64,000 nucleotides of DNA from Ahniella affigens (GTDB lineage: Bacteria > Pseudomonadota > Gammaproteobacteria > Xanthomonadales > Ahniellaceae): contig NZ_CP027860.1 in the NCBI RefSeq assembly GCF_003015185.1, positions 3,286,001 to 3,350,000 of the forward strand. Reading direction: 5' to 3'. The position numbers and the translations under genes were made by a program. Below the pieces are notes generated by a model. The model saw only the letters and a list, made by a program, of their open reading frames with translations, made no database searches and was not told the origin of the DNA. Positions 323-54,236 of this stretch are shown piece after piece. Position 1 is the first letter of the stretch, and every line of letters starts with the position of its first letter.

Positions 323-588
323 TCCGCCAACAATCCATGAGAGTCCTGCTGCGTCGAAGCGAAGGCGCCTTGCTGCGCCTGATCGGCACGGTGCAGCGCC
401 GTGGCTTTGAAGTCACCGACATCGCCACACACGCGCAGGATCATGATTCCTGGCTCGTGATGTTGAAAGTCGAATCAAATCGCGAGCTCAGACTCTTGGA
501 ACGCCAAGTCGAGAAGCTCTACGACGTGATCGAACTGATCGAAGAAGCACCCCGCTTCGAACACCCTGCCCTGGCTGCGTATGCCTAA
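319..588 (+). CDS. ilvM: acetolactate synthase small (regulatory) subunit, IlvM-like ACT protein
   Basis: An 89-residue single ACT domain, the size of the short IlvM type rather than the longer IlvN/IlvH subunits. It would bind and activate the large subunit encoded just upstream. The ACT fold is suggested by the opening strand (RVLLRRSEGALLRLIGTVQRRGF) and the later strand SWLVMLKVES. The ATG start overlaps the ilvG stop by four bases. The TAA stop (586-588) lies inside the left end of a dispersed palindromic element, so the element abuts or slightly altered the gene's 3' end. Order ilvG-ilvM-ilvE-ilvA matches the enteric ilvGMEDA operon minus ilvD. Confidence 0.88.
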   Translation: MIRQQSMRVLLRRSEGALLRLIGTVQRRGFEVTDIATHAQDHDSWLVMLKVESNRELRLLERQVEKLYDVIELIEEAPRFEHPALAAYA

Positions 589-660
589 GTTGGGTCTGAA
601 TCAGTCCATTCTGGACTTTCAGACCCGCATCGCCTCTGAACTTGTTCAGAGGCTCCCTAA
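585..660 (+). repeat. short copy of TA-flanked palindromic (MITE-like) element: outer hairpins only
   Basis: This 76-bp copy contains only the first (A) and last (E) hairpins of the five seen in the full element at 4677-4836; the three middle hairpins are missing. It begins CTAAGTTGGGTCTGAA and ends GAGGCTCCCTAA, so both ends are flanked by TA. The ilvM stop codon TAA is formed by its left end. It sits between ilvM and ilvE, where the hairpins could act as a partial terminator or mRNA stabiliser. Confidence 0.85.
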
Positions 661-4676: not shown

Positions 4677-4836
4677 CTAAGGAGGGTCTGAATCAGTCCA
4701 TCCTGGACTTTCAGACCCGCAATGAGTCCGGCACATATCCGGACTCATTTCCCCAGAATCAAGCAATTGCGTGCTTGATTCTGAGCGGGCCATCCCTGGC
4801 CCGCATCGCCTCTGAACTTATTCAGAGGCTCCCTAA
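4677..4836 (+). repeat. full-length TA-flanked palindromic (MITE-like) element with five hairpins
   Basis: A 160-bp element made of five successive perfect or near-perfect hairpins: A 4684-4718, B 4721-4749, C 4755-4782, D 4785-4804 and E 4808-4829. Its ends form an imperfect inverted repeat (AGGAGGGTCTGAA against GGGAGCCTCTGAA read inward) and both are bordered by TA. It lies between the TMEM43-like gene's upstream region and the end of phoU. A same-length copy in the opposite orientation is at 17126-17285, with shorter copies at 585, 19807 and 54161. Confidence 0.88.
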
Positions 4837-12068: not shown

Positions 12069-12296
12069 ATTCCAGCTTTCCAGGTTGTGTGAAAACGGCT
12101 TTGGCGGCCGCATTCATGGCGCCTGACGCCATCGCAAGGGGCTTACTCTGTTGTCGTCATCCCGACGAAAGTCGGGACCCAGAATACTTGCGGCACCGCG
12201 GCCAGATTGCCCTGGGTCCCGACTTTCGTCGGGATGACGGCAATGAGGTGGCGCCGCAAACTCCAACCGTTTTCACACAGCTTGTTTCGCTGGAAT
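12069..12296 (+). repeat. palindromic element with inverted termini, second family
   Basis: A 228-bp element. Its ends are inverted copies of ATTCCAGC-N5-AGGTTGTGTG and then AAAACGG (left end; the right end reads the same inward with minor changes). Inside is a long hairpin with arms CATCCCGACGAAAGTCGGGA (about 12159-12178) and its complement at 12219-12238. A related, larger element lies at 60481-60848. No coding capacity, so it would depend on transposition functions supplied elsewhere if it is mobile. Confidence 0.7.
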
Positions 12297-12332
12297 AACG
12301 ATAAGGACAGTGCCTTGGGTGATGTTTGATTA

Positions 12333-12520
12333 GAGTCCAGCCGCCCCTTTGGTGCGCTTATTCGCGCATCAAACTGTCAGCGGCGATGCGCGATTTTCGC
12401 GACGGCACAGTGTGGCAAGTAGCCCTCTCCCCAGCCCTCTCCCACTCGCGTGGGAGAGGGAGCCGGCTCCCTCCCCCGCGATCGCGGGGGAGGGCTGGGG
12501 AGGGGGCTACTTGCGGTCAG
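12333..12520 (+). repeat. interspersed repeat copy ending in a long palindrome
   Basis: The first part is nearly identical to 3310-3430, starting GAGTCCAGCCGCCCCTTTGG. From 12416 to 12513 it forms a large palindrome: CAAGTAGCCCTCTCCCCAGC and its inverted counterpart ending GGGGGCTACTTG. A smaller nested hairpin (CCCCCGCGATCGCGGGGG) lies near 12474-12491. Nothing coding is visible. Confidence 0.75.
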
Positions 12521-13407
<887 letters not shown>

Positions 13408-16936: not shown

Positions 16937-17140
16937 ATGCCCAAAGACCTCGCCGCTGCGCTGTGCCTCGTGTTTGTCATTGAAGGCCTGCTGCTCTTTG
17001 CCGTGCCGCGGTTTTGGCGGGAAATGATGCTGCGTGCCACCGAAATGACCGATCGGCAAATCCGGATCAGTGGCGCAGCCGCTATCATTGCCGGCGTATT
17101 GGCGCTGATGCTTGTGCGTGGCGTCCTAGGGAGCCTCTGA
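16937..17140 (+). CDS. DUF2065 family small membrane protein
   Basis: A 67-residue protein with two hydrophobic helices (about residues 4-23 and 44-63), matching the DUF2065 proteins that sit between hflC and purA in many gammaproteobacteria; function unknown. ATG 16937 is used because the earlier in-frame TTG lies inside the hflC terminator. The last residues (GVLGSL) and the TGA stop are encoded by the right-hand end of an inverted palindromic element starting at 17126. The original C terminus was therefore probably replaced by insertion. Confidence 0.8.
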   Translation: MPKDLAAALCLVFVIEGLLLFAVPRFWREMMLRATEMTDRQIRISGAAAIIAGVLALMLVRGVLGSL

Positions 17141-17285
17141 ACAAGTTCAGAGGCGATGCGGGCGATGGATGGCCCGCCCAGAATCGAGCACGCAAGTGCT
17201 TGATTCTGGAGCACTGAGTCCGGACATGCGCCGGACTCATTGTGGGTCTGAAAGTCCAGGATGGACTTATTCAGACCCTCCTTAG
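17126..17285 (-). repeat. full-length TA-flanked palindromic (MITE-like) element, inverted copy
   Basis: The same 160-bp five-hairpin element as at 4677-4836, in the opposite orientation (hairpins E, D, C, B, A along the plus strand). Both ends read TA (CTAGGGAGCC at left, CCCTCCTTAG at right). The left end overlaps the last codons and stop of the DUF2065 gene. It separates that gene from purA. Confidence 0.88.
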
Positions 17286-19806: not shown

Positions 19807-19858
19807 CTAGGGAGGGTCTGAATCAGTCCTTCTTGGACTTTCAGGGGCTACCTGAGCA
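19807..19858 (+). repeat. truncated copy of the TA-flanked palindromic element
   Basis: Begins CTAGGGAGGGTCTGAATCAG and keeps all of hairpin A's left arm and most of its right arm. It then jumps to GGGGCTACCTGAGC, a degraded version of the element's far end. The middle hairpins and the right TA are lost. Confidence 0.7.
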
Positions 19859-53231: not shown

Positions 53232-54164
53232 ATGAGTGTGGCAGTGACCGACCCGGCCGTGGTTCCGGCCGAGCGAAATTGGCGGCTGGTCCTGGTCCTG
53301 TTTACGCTCTATATCGTTTGGGGCTCGACTTACCTCGGCATGAAGCTGGCATTGCCCGGCTTTACCCCATACGCCCTCGCCACCTTTCGCTTGATGGTCG
53401 CTGCCAGCCTGCTCGGCGGATGGCTCTGGTGGCACGGGGCGCGTTGGCCAACGGCCCGCCAATGGCGCCACTGCGCGCTTGTTGCGTTTTTTCTGTTGGT
53501 CATCGGCAATGGGCTCGTCACGGTTGGCATGGAACTCGGCGTCTCGTCAGGTGTTGCGGCCATTGCGGTCGCCTGCATGCCCTTGTTTGCAGCGCTGTTT
53601 GCCGGCATATTTGGCAAGTGGCCACAAGGGGGCGACTGGCTGGGACTTGGCATCGGTTTTATCGGCGTCCTGCTGCTGAACCTCGGCGGCGATCTGAGCG
53701 CGAATCCTTGGGCAGCGCTGCTGCTGCTGCTCGCACCGGCCGGCTGGGCATTTGGTTCGGTCATTGGCAAGCGCCTGGATTTGCCCGAACCCATCACCGC
53801 GTCGGCGACGCAAATGGTCTGCGCCTTGCCGATGATGGCCTTGGTCACCGTGCTGCGTGGCGAAACCTGGATTCGTCCGGGGCTCGACTGGGTCTCAGTC
53901 AGTGCCCTGCTCTATCTCGCGGTGTTCGGCTCCGTCATCGGACTCAGTGCCTACGCCTATGCGCTGCACCATACGCGGCCAGCATTGGCAACCAGCTACG
54001 CCTACATCAATCCGCCCGTGGCGGTGATCTTTGGCGTGCTATTCCTCAGTGAATCATTTCATGCGTTCGATTTGATTGGCATGGCAGTCATCTTGCTCGG
54101 CGTCGCGCTGATTACGCTCCGTCGACAAGCACCGCTGCCCAAGCCGGAACCGGAAATCAGCTAA
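53232..54164 (+). CDS. EamA/DMT family exporter, YedA-like
   Basis: A 310-residue permease with ten hydrophobic helices in two EamA halves. YIVWGSTYLGMKLALPGF in the first half, LGIGFIGVLLLNLGGDLSANPWA in the middle and PALATSYAYINPPVAVIFG in the second closely resemble E. coli YedA, an uncharacterised drug/metabolite transporter. Substrate not known. The TAA stop (54162-54164) lies in the left end of a degraded palindromic element, the third gene in this window to end inside that element. Confidence 0.88.
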   Translation: MSVAVTDPAVVPAERNWRLVLVLFTLYIVWGSTYLGMKLALPGFTPYALATFRLMVAASLLGGWLWWHGARWPTARQWRHCALVAFFLLVIGNGLVTVGMELGVSSGVAAIAVACMPLFAALFAGIFGKWPQGGDWLGLGIGFIGVLLLNLGGDLSANPWAALLLLLAPAGWAFGSVIGKRLDLPEPITASATQMVCALPMMALVTVLRGETWIRPGLDWVSVSALLYLAVFGSVIGLSAYAYALHHTRPALATSYAYINPPVAVIFGVLFLSESFHAFDLIGMAVILLGVALITLRRQAPLPKPEPEIS

Positions 54165-54236
54165 GCAGGATCTGTGTAGGTCCGCCCTGGACTGTCAGAC
54201 CCGCATCGACTCTGAACTTGTTCAGCGCCTCCCTGA
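54161..54236 (+). repeat. degraded short copy of the TA-flanked palindromic element
   Basis: Begins CTAAGCAGGATCTG and includes AGGTCCGCCCTGGACTGTCA, CAGACCCGCATCGACTCTGA and ACTTGTTCAGCGCCTCCCTG. It retains the outer hairpins A and E in mutated form and lacks the middle three. The left TA falls in the stop codon of the exporter gene; the right TA has become TG. Confidence 0.75.

Follow-up and report, generated by a model that had tools for sequence, protein, structure and literature searches.

Bacterial MITEs are mostly viewed as short-lived scraps of insertion sequences (IS) that occur in one or a few species, and a 4-bp duplication at YTAR is a trait of the IS5 subgroup of the IS5 family. 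According to the accessible part of its description, MITEPsy1 of Pseudomonas syringae pv. phaseolicola is a 100-nt element with IS5-type ends (GGAAGGTCTGAAAAAGCC / GTATCCTCTGAAAAAGCC) and a 4-nt duplication at CTAG or YTAA, for which transposition has been observed and the mover is thought by its authors to be the IS5-family IS ISPsy2 (PMC3189936). MITEPsy1-like sequences are reported there from other Pseudomonas species, Marinobacter, Klebsiella and a plasmid, and the authors suggest a wide occurrence (PMC3189936). QMITE1 and QMITE2 of Coxiella burnetii, in the portion of the report available, have strong predicted folds, come in full and short forms and are a source of small RNAs; their authors did not see QMITE1 in other genomes, and QMITE2 gave short hits in alphaproteobacteria (PMC5896051). 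At the RNA level, the excerpted source on CsrA/RsmA gives the ligand consensus RUACARGGAUGU, with GGA placed in hairpin loops (PMC4347634).

The stretch of DNA analysed here, 64 kb in full and called the window below, contains two 160-bp copies of a five-hairpin element in inverse orientation. The original prediction had placed them at 4677-4836 and 17126-17285, where both were found, and they are 92% identical. The element itself measures 152 bp and reaches 160 bp with its flanking repeats. The window holds the following copies of the element and of other repeats:

4677..4836, plus strand: full five-hairpin element, body 4681-4832, with CTAA direct repeats at 4677-4680 and 4833-4836
17126..17285, minus strand: second full copy; plus-strand flanks CTAG and TTAG, with three of four bases alike
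585..660, plus strand: two-hairpin form with hairpins 1 and 5 only; CTAA on either side
54161..54236, plus strand: diverged two-hairpin form with hairpins 1 and 5 only; flanks CTAA and CTGA
19807..19858, plus strand: one-hairpin form; CTAG and end kept on the left, decayed on the right
12423..12524, no strand: copy of another repeat family, an unfilled paralogue of the L011 insertion site
12207..12327, no strand: copy of another repeat, an unfilled paralogue of the L026 insertion site

Flanks of bare TA, as first described, are not what surrounds the full copies; the actual flanks form a 4-bp repeat (CTAA/CTAA, and CTAG/TTAG in the second copy). The three short copies that had been noticed do exist, and those at 585-660 and 54161-54236 keep the outer hairpins as claimed, but the one at 19807-19858 is a single hairpin. 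The copy at 4677-4836 is separated by 7 bp from the stop-codon side of a minus-strand gene for a PhoU-domain protein (Pfam), and the copy at 17126-17285 is 33 bp away from the start of purA (17319). A scan of the window against Rfam found three tRNAs, while the same kind of scan of the element gave no family at the gathering score.

Five successive hairpins per 160-bp copy, another claim made from the letters alone, are well supported by folding. The 160-bp sequence folds at -92.8 kcal/mol, compared with a mean of -43.4 (sd 3.7) for 200 shuffles (z = -13.3). Numbered along the plus strand and lettered E to A on the minus strand, the hairpins are:

4684..4718, minus strand: hairpin 1 (E on the minus strand), terminal, holding the GGAGGGTCTGAA end; minus-strand loop AGGAT
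4721..4749, minus strand: hairpin 2 (D); basal pairs covary between copies in the host genome
4754..4783, minus strand: hairpin 3 (C); 39 of 60 compared copies have a GNRA-like loop on the minus strand
4785..4804, minus strand: hairpin 4 (B); 44 of 60 compared copies read C-ANGGAN-G at the minus-strand loop
4808..4829, minus strand: hairpin 5 (A), terminal, holding the GGAGCCTCTGAA end

The loop counts come from aligned minus-strand copies in 38 genomes, the best 60 of 97 aligned matches, with the remainder being mostly the opposite strand of the same places. In this set, 44 copies have CANGGANG at loop B, 39 have a GNRA-like loop C, and 57 have GGA inside or beside loop E.

With its 152 bp, its lack of genes and its terminal inverted repeats (GGAGGGTCTGAA / GGAGCCTCTGAA), the element has the traits of a MITE. 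Perfect 4-bp direct repeats flank 28 of 47 five-hairpin copies (25 of 47 are both perfect and YTAR), and the other 19 have no perfect repeat. Among all 66 elements examined, drawn from the genome sample described below and from the loci of a genome-wide DNA search, 53% have perfect 4-bp repeats versus 12% when the sides of different elements are compared, and all 30 perfect YTAR repeats end at four bases. Two elements (L011 and L026) are inserted in other repeats. When the two flanks are joined, unfilled paralogues of those repeats align to them and show one 4-base slot. These slots are not YTAR themselves, as in CGAG versus CTAG at the filled site. A duplication visible at empty sites had been expected, and the two paralogous sites do show a single slot, but it spans 4 bp and not TA.

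An IS of 1,223 bp is resident in the same genome in 13 copies with 0-1 differences. All 13 have 4-bp repeats, 12 of them YTAR, and the IS ends, GGAGGGTCTGAACAAGTC[C/G], are the same as those of the element. The transposase of this IS matches NF033581 (IS5_4) with 325.6 bits against a cut-off of 140, and also PF01609 and PF05598. The duplication that characterises the IS5 subgroup is found in both, at 25 of 47 element copies and 12 of 13 IS copies, and the element is a non-autonomous, MITE-type member of the IS5 group. The first assignment had been to the IS630/Tc1 type, that is, a MITE with TA duplication. YTAR does contain TA; the repeats, however, are 4 bp long and not the 2-bp TA duplication of IS630/Tc1 members, the resident IS with the same ends carries an IS5-family transposase, and the empty sites show one 4-base slot. 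We rejected this membership, which we judge to be extremely improbable.

Element and resident IS have a 12-base exact word in common at their ends, and a comparison of the element interior with the IS yielded only short, chance-like matches beyond them. Because the two have the same ends and duplications, and given the empty sites, an IS5-group transposase most likely moves the element in trans, and the spread of the element is probably due to an ordinary transposase of the IS5 type. We infer that the mover is the enzyme of the resident IS or one closely related to it. The notion of a MITE-like element with a trans-acting partner has held up in that a same-ended IS is resident (13 copies), which would have mobilised it. 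A close relative of its transposase (E <= 1e-60) was found in 25 of 250 genomes of the order. It occurs in 11 of the 44 genomes with the element and in 14 of the 206 others (Fisher p = 0.001, assuming that the element and transposase searches drew the same 250 order genomes), and 33 of the 44 element genomes have no relative at this threshold. In another genus of the family, the sole element copy found (G002:C22:64498-64657) is about 1.2 kb away from a transposase gene (G002:C22:62291-63313) whose product is 94% identical to the resident one. At L044, a resident IS copy has its transposase gene disrupted and both ends kept, with CTAG on either side.

Several hairpins in a row and some strand asymmetry are also what might be seen in a REP/BIME-type repeat, for which the mover would be a tyrosine transposase (RAYT) with strand-specific hairpin recognition. 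An ORF beside one IS5 copy (L032:325-999) does have a weak match to REP-associated tyrosine transposases, at 34.4 bits with a cut-off of 80. Terminal inverted repeats and YTAR duplications are nevertheless common to the element and the IS5-family IS, which makes movement by a RAYT enzyme very unlikely in our judgement.

The host genome consists of 6.12 Mb in two contigs. A DNA search of all of it gave at least 48 matches, with 40 of 267 candidate places scored. The prediction that termini would be shared between copies was confirmed by the end pattern YTARGGAGSSTCTGAANNNGTYC, which occurs 189 + 178 times with up to three mismatches, versus 1 + 0 for the reversed control in the same genome. Further copies had also been foreseen, and a sequence profile detected 136 hits, corresponding to 94 places, in a sample of 2.064 Mb (the window, a single stretch of the second contig and 99 stretches of 20 kb taken every 60 kb along the chromosome, including 5,000 N). 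The reversed 2.064-Mb sample gave no hits with this profile.

All five hairpins are present at 44 of the 94 places, and 50 have other hairpin sets. These partial hits, which include the decay of old copies, comprise hairpins 1+2 (11 places), 1 (9), 3+4+5 (7), 1+5 (7), 1-4 (4), 4+5 (4), 2-4 (3), 1+2+5 (2) and three sets seen once each. Mean identity, measured over hairpins 1 and 5, is 0.636 among the two-hairpin forms of 68 bp (12 copies) and 0.899 among the full forms (27 copies). With divergence this much greater, the short forms are not recent deletion products of today's full form. Of three paired three-hairpin forms, two are flanked by their own perfect 4-bp repeats. The proposed loss of the middle hairpins as a block is unsupported, given the many hairpin combinations, the three-hairpin forms with their own repeats and the greater divergence of the two-hairpin forms.

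Other arrangements were seen alongside these. A 175/176-bp form (6 copies) contains one more hairpin, similar to GCCTGCCCCGGCGAAGGCCGGGG, within the loop of hairpin 2, as if another hairpin repeat had been taken in. There are also tandem arrays with units of about 127-135 bp, mostly without hairpin 5; in the 406-bp array of L185, a direct repeat of TTTG flanks the array as a whole. The loci are:

L153:1997, L136:12703, L173:13845, L221:14282, L162:14914 and L200:14494: 175/176-bp form
L136:2656-3321, L185:8589-8996, L190:4927-5273 and G000:C1:1228230-1228643: tandem arrays

A separate, abundant family of near-perfect palindromes of about 100 bp occurs at 12423-12524 of the window and at about 35 other loci. 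It folds at -78.3 kcal/mol for 102 nt and is the host of the L011 insertion.

Beyond the host genome, the breadth of the element was absent from the original prediction because other genomes were needed to see it. At the family level, DNA matches were found in 4 of 10 genomes, including the host. A covariance model of the five hairpins (21 copies) detected the element in 44 of 250 genomes of the order and 29 of 78 genera, again with the host included. A second model, built from 39 order-wide copies, found it in 58 of 369 genomes sampled across the class (46 of 272 genera; host included, and two of the 58 genomes belonging to its own order) and in 49 of 398 genomes drawn from the phylum, the host among them and 44 outside its class. 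Those 44 include 36 from one family of 1.2-3.1-Mb genomes, and one is marginal (E 9e-4). As few candidates per genome were scored, copy numbers per genome are lower bounds. Perfect 4-bp repeats at the model's ends were seen in 7 of 14 loci of the class search viewed as sequence (all 7 YTAR), in 8 of 13 folded loci of the phylum search (7 YTAR) and in 19 of 57 order loci (12 YTAR), the class and phylum loci being without a per-hairpin count and L315 being weak.

Searches with other material gave no further members. The exact hairpin-5 pattern had no match in named-species genomes, a set from which the host genome and its near kin were possibly left out. The second model found nothing at E <= 0.01 in 80 named IS5 loci (303 kb), a search that doubles as a negative control, and plasmids (three forms searched) and phages (one form) had no match. 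That distant bacteria have the same hairpin order and several of the same loops points to a role for the fold itself.

By eye, at least three kinds of termini accompany the core, of the GGAAG.TCTGA, TAGCAGGCTGTTGA and GAGGTTGTGA types. They may stem from an exchange of ends or from an old split between lineages. Two end kinds are found within single genomes in G244 (L267, L266), G019 (L247, L272) and G245 (L248, L274). One end of the second kind adjoins a degraded IS5-family gene; the other end of that IS was looked for and not found, as was a partner IS for the third kind of ends. In six genomes chosen for other termini, PF01609 had no match in three.

The stems of the element vary with compensation while the loops stay, with GGA in two hairpins and a GNRA-like loop in a third. 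When 39 copies from across the order are aligned with MAFFT, without structural information, 82.5% of cells pair versus 67.9 when shuffled, and both sides have changed at 47 of 54 pairs (score 0.414, compared with 0.172 shuffled and 0.061-0.113 slid). In a set of 27 copies, mostly from the class and phylum, 78.0% of cells pair versus 63.2 shuffled, a value biased upwards because a model of the five-hairpin structure served to find the members from class and phylum. Changes on both sides occur there at 45 of 60 pairs (score 0.382, compared with 0.159 shuffled and 0.087-0.219 slid). The structures for both sets came from folding the same rows, which biases the results upwards, and the shuffles and slides are a partial control.

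When hairpins are taken per sequence, G·U pairs are in excess on the minus strand in the host genome (45 versus 15) and in relatives found with the plus-strand model (69 versus 37), both being counts over related, non-independent copies. Counted as distinct events in both alignments, the minus strand has 62 G·U and 31 A·C, part of this set having been found with a minus-strand model. By genome, the comparison of G·U over A·C stands at 27 versus 6 with 15 ties (both alignments). The minus strand is the more stable fold in 55 of 66 rows, with some genomes occurring in both alignments. A column-wise count on fixed alignment columns found no strand asymmetry (G·U 94 versus A·C 87). The bias of G·U pairs and stability to one strand is a hint of constraint at the RNA level, which is opposed by the asymmetry-free column count and by the unbiased orientation of the element in relatives. 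A strand-biased mutation process could yield a G·U asymmetry of the same sign.

In the host sample, 83 of the 94 places lie between called genes, 6 inside and 5 at edges. The intergenic places comprise 51 co-directional, 22 convergent and 10 divergent gaps, compared with 467, 165 and 164 among all gaps. The upstream gene is on the same strand in 54 cases versus 29, an excess that arises partly because convergent gaps are preferred. In relatives, there is no orientation bias to the upstream gene (17 versus 17 at 34 loci), and 9 of 47 loci are inside an ORF by a rough rule. Context and orientation counts carry errors because genes were called by rough ORF rules; at 4677-4836, the caller chose a plus-strand ORF where Pfam finds the PhoU protein on the minus strand.

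Template switching during replication corrects imperfect DNA palindromes towards perfect ones. By this route, the hairpins could be kept without selection and the stems would only appear to covary. The basal five-mers of hairpin 2 fit this process, as they vary within one genome and still match: among 62 copies of the host genome, found by sequence, 22 of the 35 readable ones match, versus 7.3 (maximum 14) when shuffled. The relatives without orientation bias and the column-wise count without strand asymmetry also fit. However, template switching leaves unexplained why loops are so widely kept (of 60 copies, 57 with GGA in or beside loop E, 44 with CANGGANG at B and 39 with a GNRA-like loop C) and why G·U pairs taken per sequence are in excess on one strand, and we regard it as a somewhat unlikely explanation of the hairpins.

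We consider it likely that the element is an IS5-group MITE with ends read by a transposase of the resident type, and that its interior is an old, conserved hairpin module with the folded strand under selection. In such a scheme, the transposase of the 1,223-bp IS or a close relative would read both element ends, and insertion at YTAR would duplicate those 4 bp. The interior would be an old hairpin module and not a remnant of the resident IS; across many genera, compensatory changes would have preserved its pairing, and three or more kinds of termini accompany it. This would most likely be because selection sees the folded strand starting with hairpin 5, which may act as structured RNA made by readout from a neighbouring gene, or as folded DNA during mobility. 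A bolder version, which appears unlikely to us, is a mobile RNA that spans the phylum: a conserved transcript starting with hairpin 5, offering GGA loops to CsrA/RsmA-like proteins and bearing a GNRA loop, that has switched transposases by swapping its terminal hairpins while its core was kept. If this were true, a single RNA, selfish or useful, would have travelled with several IS groups.

The interior of the element looks older than its ends, with the five-hairpin order and kept loops in dozens of genera and varied termini. Selection on the fold of a MITE, at the DNA or RNA level, becomes directly testable, and the covariance models allow the five-hairpin family to be mapped.

We found no description of this family in a literature search whose scope excluded most subscription journals, and the accessible part of a MITE review does not name it (PMC10969869). 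Among the systems compared, IS5-family IS of the NF033581 (IS5_4) kind have the same ends and YTAR duplication as the element, which differs from them in being gene-free and is similar to them only at the ends. QMITE1 and QMITE2 are likewise MITEs with strong predicted folds in full and short forms, but, as far as the available portion of that report goes, their direct repeats are of 2-4 nt or 7-11 nt and not the 4-bp YTAR of the element (PMC5896051). None of the Csr/Rsm families of Rfam matched the element at the gathering score, the best such sRNA being RsmW with 14 bits (E 4.2). The minus strand nevertheless resembles CsrA/RsmA ligands in having GGA in hairpin loops, in or beside loop E in 57 of 60 copies and at loop B, as C-ANGGAN-G, in 44 of 60, and binding of such proteins is a prediction from these loops. 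MITEPsy1 has the same sort of ends and 4-bp duplication as the five-hairpin element, whereas its length is 100 nt and the accessible part of its report describes neither five hairpins nor a conserved structure. Compared by description, MITEPsy1 may already foreshadow part of the breadth seen here for the five-hairpin family.
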